A stretch of 64,000 nucleotides of DNA from Methylacidiphilum sp. Yel (GTDB lineage Bacteria; Verrucomicrobiota; Verrucomicrobiia; Methylacidiphilales; Methylacidiphilaceae), in contig NZ_LXQB01000023.1 of NCBI RefSeq assembly GCF_004421185.1, positions 21,569 through 85,568 on the forward strand. Reading direction: 5' to 3'. Of the stretch, positions 6,564 through 31,525 are shown one piece after another; position 1 is the stretch's first letter, and every line of letters begins with the position of its first letter. Both the position numbers and the translations under genes were made by a program. A model generated the notes under the pieces. The model saw only the letters and a program-made list of their open reading frames with translations, did not search any database and was not told the origin of the DNA.

Positions 6564-7097
6564 ACAGTTGCCCCTTCATAGATAAAGCAATTTGAAAAGA
6601 AAAGTATCGAATAACTTTCTAAAATCCATAATTCATTCTTTTTTGTCTATTTCCTATCTATCATGCCTTAATTATTTGTAACACATATAACCTTATTTAC
6701 AACCAATTATGCTTAAGAAAATAATTTAAAAAAATTATCTTCTTCTTTTATTCTATAGCGACAGATAAGCTGACCAAGTTTTGTGGAAGTCGATCAAGAC
6801 AAGCTGTCGGTTCAGAGAGAAAGAGAATAGTTCAACAAATTTGCGCGGGAGTCCCCGCCTTTCAAGGCGGGGAGGGATAGCGCCGCCGCGTAGTGGCGAT
6901 GTTTTACAAGTGAAACATAATAATCATGAACATGAATGAATCGATCTTTCTGCTCTCTTAGCTACTCCAAGGTAGTTCAGCTGACTGACTTATAGCCTCT
7001 CTTTCCAAAACCTTTATTTAAGTCGTTCTAATTAATGCTTTTGAACCTCCCCAGCGATTTTCCACTGATGCCTGTTTTCATTCTGGAATAGTTTAGT
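6564..7097. other. 534-base gene-free stretch with one mobile-element end
   Basis: No convincing ORF was found. The first half is very A+T-rich. A GC-rich insertion-sequence end lies at 6843-6897 and is listed separately. No tRNA or riboswitch-like fold was recognised. Confidence 0.6.
6843..6897 (-). mobile_element. Solo right end of an IS200/IS605-superfamily element
   Basis: A perfect 9-bp stem with a 2-base loop (CCCCGCCTT/AAGGCGGGG, 6853-6872) is followed by AGGGATAGCG and a second GC-rich hairpin (CGCCGC/GTGGCG). The same arrangement, hairpin then GGGATAGCG then GC hairpin, ends the HEARO element at 30,092. Subterminal hairpins of this kind mark the ends recognised by the TnpA transposase of IS200/IS605 elements. 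No transposase, TnpB or left end is found nearby, so this is a remnant or a very short passenger. Orientation is given to match the HEARO element. Confidence 0.6.
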
Positions 7098-27509: not shown

Positions 27510-29162
27510 GTGAAATTCAATGTTTTTCTCCAGATTGAAGGGATGAAATGCGAAGATTGTGCAACGCATCTTCTAAGAGCTCTTCAAAAACTCCAAGGGA
27601 TTGAAAAAGTTCAGATGACTGATTGGCGATCCAAAAGAGCCAACCTTGTTACTACCCAGCAATGGAACGAGCAGGAAGTTCTACAAACAATCGAAGCATT
27701 AGGTTACCAGGGCACTGTCATCGAACGGATGCCAATAGGAATGGACAGCGAAGAGAGGAGCAAAGCTTATGATCTTTTGATTGTAGGTGGAGGTTCTGCT
27801 GCCTTTGCTGCTGCAATAAAAGCAAGTGAACTAGGAGCGAAGGTTGGGATCGTTGAATCTGGGGTCATTGGAGGTACCTGTGTCAATGTGGGCTGCGTCC
27901 CGTCAAAATTCCTTATTCGAGCCGCTGAAGTTTACACAATGGCAAGGAACCCTCGGTTCGCAGGTTTAGGACCTTGTAATATGCCCTTAGACTGGGCACA
28001 ATTGTCCGATCAAAAAGAAAAATTGGTCAGCATGTTGCGGATGCAAAAATACCTCCATCTTTTGGATGTCTACCCAAATATTTCTCTTATCGAGGGAAAG
28101 GCAAGATTGATGGCTGGCAACCAACTGATCGTTAATAATAAAACCTATACTTCAAGAAAAATTCTGTTAGCCACTGGTTCCTCTCCGTCTATCCCTCCGA
28201 TTCCTGGGTTAAAAGAGACAGGTTTTCTCGATAGCACCACTGCCTTAAGTGTAAAAACTCTGCCCTCTTCTCTTGCCATAATTGGCGGAGGAACTATAGG
28301 ACTAGAACTTGGACAGATGTTTGCCCGCTTTGGCGTTAAGGTACATATCATTGAGGCCCTCCCCTCAATTGCCATGAGCGAAGAACCTGAAATAAGAGAG
28401 CAACTTAGCCTATGTTTGAAAGAAGAAAGGATTGAACTCTTGACAAACACTCAGGTGCGCTATGTGGAAAAAACGGGAGAAAATGGCTGTTTTATTTCTA
28501 TCCAAAACGGGAAAAAAGGAATTGGATTGAGGGTGGAGAAAATTCTTGTCACAACAGGTCGTAGTCCCAACACAGCAGAGCTAGGACTCGAAGAAGTTGG
28601 AGTCAAAAAGGGAAGTCGTGGAGAAATTCTTGTTGATTCCTTTCTACGTACCACCAATCCAGACATTTATGCCGCCGGAGATTGTGCAGGCTTTCCGCAG
28701 TTTGTTTATGTATCCGCTTACACTGGAGGAATCGCTGCAGAAAATGCTATTAAGGGAGCTAAACGATCAATTGATTTTTCAGCTCTACCCAGAGTGACTT
28801 TCACCGATCCACAGATCGCAAGTGTTGGCTTAACCGAGGCTCAAGCAAAAAAAGAAGGATTGAATGTTGTTACTTCGATTTTTCCGTTCAAAGAGGTTCC
28901 AAAGGCTATCATTTCTTTGGATACTAGAGGATTAATTAAGCTTGTAATCGAAAAAAACACAGAAAAACTTCTAGGGGCTCACTTGCTTGCTGCAGCAGCT
29001 GGAGATTTTATTCAGGAGGCCGTTGTTGCTCTCCGACATGGATTAACCATACAAGACATAGTGGATGGCTTCCATCCCTATCTAACAATGAGTGAAGCAA
29101 TAAAACTGGCTGCACTCTCATTTAAAAAAGATGTCGGACATCTTTCCTGTTGTGCCAGTTAG
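27510..29162 (+). CDS. merA: Mercuric reductase with N-terminal heavy-metal-associated domain
   Basis: The 550-residue flavoenzyme begins with an HMA domain carrying GMKCEDC (metal-binding C-x2-C), followed by the FAD motif IVGGGSAAFAAAIKA, the redox-active GGTCVNVGCVPSK, an NADPH fold (IIGGGTIGLELGQ), AAGDCAG and the C-terminal vicinal cysteines LSCCAS that carry Hg(II) to the active site. It reduces Hg(II) to Hg(0) in the cytoplasm. No merT or merP transporter is nearby. The start at 27510 is a GTG or equivalent following AGGAGG. Confidence 0.94.
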   Translation: MKFNVFLQIEGMKCEDCATHLLRALQKLQGIEKVQMTDWRSKRANLVTTQQWNEQEVLQTIEALGYQGTVIERMPIGMDSEERSKAYDLLIVGGGSAAFAAAIKASELGAKVGIVESGVIGGTCVNVGCVPSKFLIRAAEVYTMARNPRFAGLGPCNMPLDWAQLSDQKEKLVSMLRMQKYLHLLDVYPNISLIEGKARLMAGNQLIVNNKTYTSRKILLATGSSPSIPPIPGLKETGFLDSTTALSVKTLPSSLAIIGGGTIGLELGQMFARFGVKVHIIEALPSIAMSEEPEIREQLSLCLKEERIELLTNTQVRYVEKTGENGCFISIQNGKKGIGLRVEKILVTTGRSPNTAELGLEEVGVKKGSRGEILVDSFLRTTNPDIYAAGDCAGFPQFVYVSAYTGGIAAENAIKGAKRSIDFSALPRVTFTDPQIASVGLTEAQAKKEGLNVVTSIFPFKEVPKAIISLDTRGLIKLVIEKNTEKLLGAHLLAAAAGDFIQEAVVALRHGLTIQDIVDGFHPYLTMSEAIKLAALSFKKDVGHLSCCAS

Positions 29163-29532: not shown

Positions 29533-29952
29533 TTATGTTTCATGATCTTCCAAAGCCGAAAGAATTGGACAAGGCTTTTCGGTTCGGTTTTTTTGACAAC
29601 TATTTGCTAAGTTCTCAAGGCTCTCTTTTATTCTTCGGAGATCTTTTATTCTTTTTTCAAGATCTTCTATTTTCCTCTTGACCTTCTGCAAAACTCTTTG
29701 ACAGCTGCCTTCTTTAGGTAAAAAAAGAAGTTCTTTGACTTCATTTAAAGATAAACCTAGTTCCTTAGCTCGTTTAATAAAGCTTATGGTTTTTAAAGCA
29801 TTTTGATCGTAAAGACGGTAACCCGAAAGAGAACGTGCCGGCTTGGGTAGTAAACCTTTCCTTTCATAAAATCGAATGGTTTCCACTCCAACCCCAGCCA
29901 TATTTGCCACCTTACCAATGGTCAAAGGCCTGTTGATTGTTTTCTGATTCAT
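29533..29952 (-). CDS. merR: MerR, mercury-responsive regulator
   Basis: A 139-residue MerR-family protein: HTH LTIGKVANMAGVGVETIRFYERKGLLP, a dimerisation coiled coil, and three cysteines in the Hg(II)-binding pattern, one in GSCQRV and two spaced C-x8-C (CQKNRTEKPC). This pattern separates Hg-sensing MerR from CueR or ZntR. It is convergent with merA, not divergent as in classical mer operons, and its own promoter has MerR-type architecture. Confidence 0.93.
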   Translation of the reverse strand: MNQKTINRPLTIGKVANMAGVGVETIRFYERKGLLPKPARSLSGYRLYDQNALKTISFIKRAKELGLSLNEVKELLFLPKEGSCQRVLQKVKRKIEDLEKRIKDLRRIKESLENLANSCQKNRTEKPCPILSALEDHET

Positions 29953-29958
29953 GCAACA

Positions 29959-29989
29959 ATATAAACCCTAAACTAAACTTTAGGGACAA
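29959..29989 (-). promoter_or_regulatory. MerR-type promoter/operator of merR
   Basis: On the minus strand, -35 TTGTCC and -10 TTATAT are separated by 19 bases, with the dyad CCCTAAA/TTTAGGG in the spacer region. This suggests merR controls itself through the same distortion mechanism as merA, although the dyad sequence differs. Confidence 0.7.
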
Positions 29990-30091
29990 AAGAAAGCGTA
30001 TGAAATAATCTTTTGAACAAACTTTTGGATCGGATCAGAAAAAAATTTTTACTAAAAATTCCTTAGCTAGTATTAATTTCATCCAGTTGCG

Positions 30092-30499
30092 AGGGAAACC
30101 CTGGCATTCATGCCGGGGAGGGATAGCGCGGCGGCGTAAGCCGCCCCAGTTCCCGCCATCTCCTTCCTCCAATGCTATCTTGGTTCAGGCGGGCACGTCC
30201 ACGACCCATCAACCCTCCGCGCCCACTTTCCTAAGCCCTTAGGAGCCTTGTAATGCAGGCATCTCTGCCCCTCTCCCCTCAGGCATGTCTGCAACCGGCT
30301 CACCCCTCGCGGTGTCGGTAAGAACCTTCAGGCCTTTGCCCTTGCCCAGCATGATCCCCATCTTCCAGTGTCTGGGACTGAGGAAGCATCCCGGAGTGGG
30401 TCTTAACGACCTGTTGCAAACGTAGGGGACTGCCTACTGCTTTCCCTGTTCAAGATAGCTTGCTTTCACAAGCTCCGCCCTCTAGGGCGGGGTAGTTGA
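30092..30499 (-). ncRNA. HEARO/IscB-type omega RNA in a 0.4-kb element without iscB
   Basis: Read on the minus strand from 30499, the sequence has a perfect GC hairpin (CCGCCCT/AGGGCGG), the GCTTG-TGAAAG-CAAGC hairpin, a GTAGGCAGTCCCCTAC hairpin, then CCACTCCGGGAT and CCTCAGTCCCAGACACTGG. From memory, this order and these motifs match the scaffold of IscB guide RNAs (HEARO RNA). The element ends in the IS200/IS605-type right-end hairpin (30099-30118). No IscB, TnpA or TnpB ORF is present, so it is probably a non-autonomous element. The guide would be the sequence just above 30499, which is the end of ppa. Confidence 0.68.
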
Positions 30500-31063
30500 C
30501 TCTTTCCAATTTCTATACCGTTCTAAAGACTCTTCAATAATTGGGAAAGCTTCCTTAGCTGGGAGAAAGTCTTCTACTACCACCTTTTTATGTTCCAATG
30601 CCTTGTAATCCTCAAAGAATCGTCGGATAACCCGCAACTTATGGATGGGAAGTTCATGAATATCGTTCAAATGACTGTATTCTGGATCGCTTGTGAGCAC
30701 ACAAACTATTTTATGATCTAGTTGTCCCTGGTCTTCCATTACCATTAGCCCTATTGTCCGCGCATGCACTAATGTCATAGGCAAGACAGGCTCATCCCCA
30801 AGAACCAAAACATCCAACGGGTCTTTATCTTCTGCCAGTGTTTGAGGAATAAATCCATAGTTGGCCGGATAATAAACGGCTGAATAAAGTACCCTGTCTA
30901 AGCGTAAAAGCCCAGTTTCTTTATCCAACTCATATTTATTGGAACTACCTTTTGAGACTTCAATCACTGCATTGAATTGAGAAGGCAGCCCATTTATTCC
31001 AGGAGAAACGTCATGCCAGGGATGAGAAACACCCTGTCTGTGATATGTAAAAGAAGGCGTCAT
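30482..31063 (-). CDS. ppa: Inorganic pyrophosphatase, family I, with an insertion-derived C-terminus
   Basis: The 193-residue enzyme shows family I motifs: KYELDKETGLLRLDRVLYSAVYYPANYGFIPQT and EDKDPLDVLVL, whose aspartates bind Mg. It hydrolyses pyrophosphate in the cytoplasm and pulls biosynthetic reactions forward. The normal core ends at about ERYRNWKE; the last residues (Ser-Thr-Thr-Pro-Pro) and the TAG stop are read from the left end of the HEARO element. The stop lies inside the element's first hairpin. Confidence 0.93.
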   Translation of the reverse strand: MTPSFTYHRQGVSHPWHDVSPGINGLPSQFNAVIEVSKGSSNKYELDKETGLLRLDRVLYSAVYYPANYGFIPQTLAEDKDPLDVLVLGDEPVLPMTLVHARTIGLMVMEDQGQLDHKIVCVLTSDPEYSHLNDIHELPIHKLRVIRRFFEDYKALEHKKVVVEDFLPAKEAFPIIEESLERYRNWKESTTPP

Positions 31064-31525
31064 AAAAAAAAAGATTTAAACAGACTTTGACCACACATCT
31101 CAAGAATTCAAGCAAAAGGCTACAAGAATTTTGTTATCGTTACTCTTTTGTGAGCATAGGATGCTATAGTGTTCTTGTTCATCAAGGTATCCTTGATTTG
31201 AGATAAAAATTTTTTTTCAACTTTATCTATAGAGAGAATAGACGAAGCAATCAACGCCTGTTCTCTGCGCTAAAACGACTGATAGGCTTGCAATGCCTGC
31301 TACTTTTTTTTCCTCTTTAAGAAAGTTAAGCAGAGGAAAAACAAATTCTACGAAATAAACCTCTTGGCACTCCATCCGCGTTCCACTTCGGGTCGATTAC
31401 TAGTTTTGCTGATGATCCAGTTAATGCATGATTTGATGAGAGCAAAGAGCTGCTATCTTTCAACTTTTCCTCCTCCAGCCACCAAGAAAACACTCCAAAG
31501 CTTTATACTGGAAAAAAAAGCAATA
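31064..31525. other. Gene-free stretch between ppa and the nifX-associated gene
   Basis: A+T-rich with no convincing ORF or RNA gene. A weak sigma-54-like match on the plus strand (TGGCACTCCATCCGCG, 31365-31380) is discussed under rejected items. No terminator with a T-run was clear for the nifHDKENX operon. Confidence 0.5.

Follow-up and report, generated by a model that had tools for sequence, protein, structure and literature searches.

Several kinds of mobile guide-RNA system lie close to the locus described here. In IscB (OMEGA) transposons, a guide-RNA scaffold (HEARO; Rfam RF02033) accompanies an iscB gene. IS200/IS605 elements have non-autonomous derivatives, including MITE-like and palindrome-associated elements, and their insertion is expected to be scarless, without duplication of the target. 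Stand-alone omegaRNAs, that is, HEAROs without an adjacent IscB, have been noted in the literature, and TldR proteins are guide-RNA repressors derived from TnpB. For OgeuIscB, a TAM of NNRR and a guide length of about 16–17 nt are reported (PMC9640706).

The element that concerns us lies at the end of ppa in a 64,000-nucleotide stretch of Methylacidiphilum DNA, the whole of which was analysed and which we call the window. Its type is already known; the interesting part is the docking of such elements at gene boundaries. It resembles an IscB/OMEGA transposon in its full-model scaffold match, in the 5′ position of its guide, in ends of the type found on an iscB-bearing element of the same genome (on contig C63) and in the adjoining ATGA, but differs from one in lacking iscB, in being 418 bp rather than about 1.7 kb long and in having a scaffold that scores under the Rfam cut-off. 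Like non-autonomous IS200/IS605 derivatives, it has both ends, no protein gene and several copies, and insertion is scarless where it can be read exactly; unlike them, it has a full guide-RNA scaffold and could draw not only on a transposase but also on a nuclease supplied in trans. With stand-alone omegaRNAs it shares a scaffold without a neighboring nuclease, yet here the scaffold is part of a delimited mobile element for which there are sister copies and empty alleles, and nuclease-less families apparently arose three times independently in the genus. As in TldR systems, a guide-RNA element is found after nuclease function has been lost; the window element, however, contains no nuclease-dead protein, and a tyrosine-bearing IscB in a related genome is only a lead.

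Results

The element occupies positions 30083–30500 of the window on the minus strand (418 bp), limits that we set from sister copies and empty alleles. An earlier note on this DNA, made from the letters alone, had placed here a HEARO-type guide-RNA element without its nuclease, inserted at the 3′ end of ppa between 30092 and 30499, and had pointed to an IscB omega-RNA core (CCGGGAT...CAGTCCC...CACTGG); the core is indeed present on the minus strand, and the real extent of the element is slightly wider than proposed. The scaffold (30267–30500, minus strand) matches the HEARO model RF02033 from 30500 to 30267 over model positions 1–211 of 211, with 69 bits and an E value of 9.8e-14, and this was the sole match at E-value thresholds in 29900–30700. 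The scaffold matches the covariance model over its whole length, but at a score that falls under the gathering score of 83 bits, and cmscan at gathering thresholds found no Rfam match in the entire window. Apart from the end of ppa, no ORF of at least 80 aa lies within 30083–30500, and the iscB ORF that is present downstream of the scaffold in the C63 element is absent from this one. Comparison at the level of sequence confirms that the element derives from an IscB (HEARO) transposon, of which it has kept the guide-RNA scaffold and both ends but no protein gene, and it is best regarded as a degraded HEARO copy, not a complete IscB transposon.

Folding energy is ordinary, both for 420 nt (z of −1.21, 13 of 100 shuffles being equally stable) and for the scaffold alone (z of −1.23, 26 of 200 shuffles), so that the element is identified by its fit to the structure model and by its sister copies rather than by stability; with z of about −1.2 being weak, folding energy was dropped as evidence.

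Downstream of the scaffold, a stretch at 30182–30226 (minus strand) has a by-eye, unscored likeness to the C63 iscB element and is probably a remnant of N-terminal iscB coding sequence left by an internal deletion. It runs into the distal transposon end (30083–30187, minus strand), which has subterminal hairpins, is common to iscB-bearing elements (91% identity to the C63 end, query 334–443) and is matched also on contigs C72, C47, C41, C58 and C13 of the same genome. Elsewhere in the window, 6841–6892 (minus strand) is 81% identical to this distal end with no scaffold match adjoining it, and is probably a relic of another IS200/IS605-type insertion. Relatives of the scaffold, at 71–77% identity over 54–64% of the query, occur in nine Pseudomonas, Polaromonas and Allochromatium plasmid records among the matches listed, in none of which an annotated feature lies under the match.

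We compared five genomes of what we take to be the genus Methylacidiphilum: the element's own genome (G000), which is a draft assembly of 88 contigs and 2.25 Mb, and G001 to G004, of which G002, G003 and G004 are presumably M. fumariolicum, M. infernorum and M. kamchatkense, respectively. That the sequence should recur as a repeat was borne out by 25 matches in its own genome (itself included), three of the others being nearly full length. These sister copies, on contigs C14, C78 and C43, are 93, 93 and 91% identical to the window element over 420–427 bases, and their HEARO scores of 112.4, 103.3 and 95.8 bits all lie above the 83-bit cut-off. The window copy has the lowest score of the four and the most broken pairs among the four solo scaffolds (those without iscB); relative to the C63 scaffold it is 87% identical, whereas the three sister scaffolds are 91–94% identical. 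With its scaffold partly decayed, the window copy is probably on its way out.

The iscB-bearing element itself, C63:3720–5433, is matched at both of its ends by the window element (query 17–292 at 82% identity and query 334–443 at 91%), and at C63:3724–5433, between the same scaffold and far end, it encodes a 440-aa IscB without stops. This protein has RRXRR and HNH domains, matches solved IscB structures and contains the motifs LDPGS, EIDHIHP and PKTHCLDA, to which we presumptively assign catalytic roles; every other iscB match of this genome is disrupted, incomplete or located at the end of a contig. With its scaffold and both ends common to an iscB element, the window element is best read as a non-autonomous derivative of an IscB transposon. 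At the occupied C78 and C43 alleles, a frame that starts 43 codons upstream, inside the element, runs in frame into the downstream gene, which on this reading of the sequence could gain an N-terminal extension from the element; by eye, the copies that lie away from gene starts differ there by one base.

At ppa (30482–31063, minus strand; inorganic pyrophosphatase), the last codons (STTPP) and the stop are supplied by the element. An empty ppa site in relatives, which the earlier note had suggested looking for, is found in both G002 and G004. When the flanks in the window are joined, they end ...EESLERYRNWKE (reading ...ERYRNWKE) followed by TGA, giving a protein of 188 aa, and the element therefore entered at the ppa stop codon (A|TGA); the ATGA at 30079–30082 (minus strand, reading 30082 to 30079) is the first genomic tetramer outside the element. 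The occupied gene ends ...RNWKESTTPP and encodes 193 aa, with the pyrophosphatase domain intact (PF00719, E value of 8.6e-57, residues 32–183 of 193). In G002 the C terminus reads ...RNWKIETGK and in G004 ...RNWKMNKRS.

The order left flank, element, ATGA makes ATGA, which fits NNRR, the predicted TAM and makes the 16 nt immediately 5′ of the scaffold (30501–30516, minus strand), the last pre-insertion bases of ppa, the predicted guide; the arrangement is one of sequence layout, and use of the guide is a prediction. Where the element is present, the four bases after the guide are GTCA; these do not conform to NNRR, and self-cutting would therefore not be expected. The proposal that such a guide could target the empty ppa allele is plausible and agrees with the guide bases and the TAM, but for this copy it is weakened by the alleles of the relatives. 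In particular, the window flank beside ATGA is two bases longer than that of G004 (GGAAAGA versus GGAAA), and the G002 flank carries an extra short stretch there, with the result that the predicted guide is out of register with both empty alleles and would fit only the empty ppa allele of its own lineage. Promoter-like sites in 29900–31400 numbered 0, against 2.3 expected in shuffles. On the other side of the element, a gene at 27510–29162 (plus strand) encoding a mercuric-reductase-like protein (HMA domain and pyridine-nucleotide-disulphide oxidoreductase) and a MerR regulator gene at 29533–29952 (minus strand) sit between ppa and a gene that we take to be nifB-like.

The genome supplies an uninterrupted iscB, on C63, but the same cannot be said of tnpA: the 12 Y1 transposase matches in the draft assembly are all partial or interrupted by a stop. 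Mobilization of the element in trans, as the earlier note envisaged, is likely, but present mobility is doubtful. An intact Y1 gene may have gone undetected among repeats at the contig ends. Eight of the 12 Y1 loci (the other four overlap them) were aligned for ends shared with the element, and the best score was 15.0 against a shuffle maximum of 14.5; in the relatives, one G002 locus scored 16.5 and six G001 loci 21–23.5. Identification of the transposase through shared ends was dropped, because the best score in the own genome barely exceeds that of the shuffles and no ATGA lies at the junction in the five G001 loci inspected. Occupied and empty alleles were compared at 12 sites. At 1519k, 861k, 710k, 731k and 1988k, the left flank and ATGA are directly contiguous in G004 (a gap of 0), without duplication; length differences of 3–24 bases remain at four others, and three sites in G003 aligned only weakly.

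HEARO matches numbered 11 in G000 (fragments included), 9 in G002 and 5 in G003, with none in G001 or G004. Alignment of 18 scaffolds gave four identity groups: group A, with four solo copies and the C63 element, all in G000; group B, with six solo copies in G002 (76–86% mutual identity); group C, with five solo copies in G003 (72–90%); and group D, with the solo copy 1988k and the sole uninterrupted iscB element of G002 (94%). The right end of 1988k is unlike that of other solo copies, and we still count it as solo. Because the inner remnants of groups A, B and C differ by eye, nuclease loss was apparently recurrent, and nuclease-less families would seem to have arisen at least three times in the genus, with 4, 6 and 5 copies in three species.

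In G003, a single contig of 2,287,145 bases, we detected no RRXRR match and no Y1_Tnp match; its only IscB-like match is weak (66 residues, E value of 5e-4), and similar ones occur in all five genomes. All five G003 scaffolds score 88–104 bits, above the Rfam cut-off. Covariation among them, measured on structures derived from the same sequences and with several of the changes separating two sub-groups, was 0.158, against 0.099 ± 0.015 in shuffled alignments (1 of 500 as high) and 0.014–0.066 with slid partners. Changes on both sides were seen in 7 of 65 pairs, against 4.6 ± 1.4 in shuffles (38 of 500 as high), and further pair types showed no excess (16 against 15.6, with 280 of 500 shuffles as high); in the G002 alignment, of eight scaffolds one of which is iscB-linked, 4 of 76 pairs changed on both sides. 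Together these values are no more than suggestive of conserved pairing in the G003 and G002 scaffolds. A wider draw from the phylum under stricter filters had HEARO in 3 of 387 genomes, G003 not being among the matches listed. At G002:C1:1050938–1052155, an IscB with an open frame has tyrosine for histidine both in the HNH motif (EIDYIHP) and in the third RuvC motif (PKAYCLDA); such a protein may be nuclease-dead, and the same genome holds seven solo guide-RNA elements beside it.

Each of two gene starts carries an element in two species. The C43 copy of G000 and the 1519k copy of G002 are inserted in the same gene at an identical position, which is empty in G004. Their flanks are about 95% identical and their scaffolds only 71%, which rules out one inherited, drifting insertion; by eye, some bases at the C43 right end resemble the other family. 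The copies 731k (G002) and 1726k (G003) share an alcohol dehydrogenase gene (71% identical over 659 bases), both lying at its start. Such shared sites could have come about by independent insertion at favored sites or by replacement of one element by another. At L084 (the C43 site) and L085, two different solo elements lie at the start codon of one gene for a small, cysteine-rich, secreted-type protein. This 77-aa protein has no Pfam or NCBIfam match, and the neighboring genes look DUF692- and DUF2063-like, a layout that we take to be as in copper-binding peptide operons.

Start codons are a common docking site. With flanks joined, the ATG of ATGA is the start of a same-strand ORF of 60 aa or more in 12 of the 16 solo copies of the genus, and the TGA closes an ORF (188 and 377 aa) in two of the 16, the window copy included. 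Start-docked genes include those for a tubulin-like protein, LptF/LptG, HpnC, a zinc alcohol dehydrogenase, an ABC-2 permease, 6-phosphogluconolactonase, a sigma-factor-like protein and a YgfZ-like protein; 2 of the 10 scanned had no family match. In 400 kb of G004, 272 of 3544 ATGA sites (7.7%) are start-like and 93 of 3516 close an ORF, and when ATGA sites at which an insertion would disrupt a gene are set aside the start-like share rises to 272 of 685 (39.7%), so that selection against other insertions may explain a good part of the pattern. Measured against this 39.7% null, the solo copies give p = 0.005 (12/16) or, counted as distinct sites, p = 0.017 (10/14). Pooling all sites (30 of 47 at starts) gives p = 0.0007, a value that mixes two criteria, since the 23 outside-genus sites in the pool were judged by ORF length alone, and that takes its null from one genome.

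Among iscB-bearing or decayed copies of the genus with a resolved end, one of eight lies at a start (1050k in G002, by eye); after C47, also among the eight, the tetramer is ATAA instead of ATGA. The difference from the solo copies is significant (12/16 versus 1/8, Fisher p = 0.006; p = 0.012 with the 10/14 distinct sites). The idea that docking is specific to solo copies was nonetheless dropped, because outside the genus 14 of 19 iscB-bearing elements among the matches listed also abut starts. A pattern scan of named genomes gave at least 80 outside loci. Among the 80 listed, 38 have iscB downstream, 25 are near a contig end and 17 lack iscB within 2.5 kb; four of these 17 (among the matches listed) are HEAROs at the gathering score, and the other 13 may be chance. 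Ends beside ATGA were resolved, partly by eye, at 19 of the 38 iscB loci and at the four solo loci (again among the matches listed), the other 19 iscB loci being dropped for a contig end or because no end with ATGA was recognized, which biases the sample toward ATGA. In this sample an ORF of 60 aa or more begins at the ATGA in 17 of 23 sites (14/19 with iscB and 3/4 solo, among the matches listed), against 312 of 1035 ATGA sites of the same loci beyond the element (p = 2e-5, likewise among the matches listed). Judged by the start of their sequences, several of the docked genes are presumably galE, yebG, yicC, ruvA, mutS2, hisC and mreC. A search of titles and abstract openings, which did not extend to the primary HEARO, OMEGA, IS605 homing and ISC papers, found no published report of start-codon docking by HEARO.

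Discussion

We think it probable that the window element is a non-autonomous IscB/IS200–IS605 passenger at the ppa stop codon, likely mobilized in trans, whose RNA would be loaded by the IscB of the genome. Its homology to an iscB element, its copies, the uninterrupted iscB in trans, the empty alleles and the placement at a stop codon are all observed. The deletion, mobilization, RNA processing, loading and cutting we infer, as follows. An internal deletion of iscB would have left a protein-free element, which a Y1 (TnpA) transposase acting in trans would have mobilized and which would have inserted 5′ of the ATGA that forms the ppa stop. Transcription of ppa would then run into the element, making the last ppa bases the 5′ guide of its RNA. 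IscB encoded elsewhere, on C63, would load this RNA and cut an empty allele (guide plus ATGA), which would regain the element when repaired from an occupied copy; the occupied site, with GTCA and no TAM after the guide, would be spared. Against this explanation stand the 69-bit score, the partial Y1 matches, the out-of-register guide and the lack of promoter-like sites around the element.

Some of these same points would be expected if the element were an inert relic. It would then be a deletion derivative that was mobile in a period of transposase and nuclease activity and that has been functionless since its insertion, its RNA unused. Such a history, which we hold to be unlikely but by no means negligible, would agree with the decay of the window scaffold (69 bits against 95.8–112.4 in its sisters), with an assembly in which Y1 matches are only interrupted or partial and with the broken or partial state of the other iscB matches. 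It accords less well with the three sister scaffolds, which have stayed close to that of C63 and above the Rfam cut-off, with the presence of an uninterrupted IscB in the genome and with G003, which has neither RRXRR nor Y1 matches and yet keeps five high-scoring solo scaffolds despite their 72–90% identity.

The retention of scaffolds in G003 also bears on the view that solo copies are kept in host transcripts as leader or regulatory RNAs that affect expression, which we consider highly improbable. The same-strand abutment of most solo copies to gene start codons, the covariation among the five G003 scaffolds and the two gene starts occupied in two species each are in its favor. The window copy, however, is at a stop codon and not upstream of a gene, and start docking calls for no host role, as it is also common beyond the genus for elements that carry iscB (14 of 19 among the matches listed). 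Moreover, the site shared by C43 and 1519k holds different elements, the two other pairing measures in G003 are weaker and all of them use a structure drawn from the same five sequences, few pairs changed on both sides in the G002 group, and the folding z-scores are weak. That the element is not a HEARO at all but consists of chance hairpins at the end of an unrelated insertion sequence, as the lack of a match at the gathering threshold and the ordinary folding energy might suggest, is refuted by the whole-model match, by the sister copies above the cut-off and by the scaffold and end held in common with an iscB element.

Beyond the placement of one non-autonomous passenger at ppa, we tentatively suggest a broader reading, although we doubt that all of its parts will hold together. 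IscB/HEARO transposons might be parasites of start and stop codons, their ATGA target and TAM lying on a host start (ATG|A) or stop (A|TGA). The guide RNA would then be transcribed from the host promoter, with the leader or tail of the gene itself as the guide, and changes to the TAM would nearly always damage the gene. Copies reduced to the guide RNA would have exploited this docking on at least three occasions in the genus; in one species they would have outlived nuclease and transposase with the RNA fold intact.

The four solo copies, the one uninterrupted IscB and the empty alleles form a set for asking whether one IscB serves many guide RNAs, and G003, with five scaffolds above the cut-off and no IscB or Y1 detected, makes retention of such RNAs by the host testable. 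Docking at gene boundaries, should it be borne out by a census that is larger and free of bias, would explain how such elements come by harmless sites, by a promoter for the guide and by a target that hosts can hardly change.
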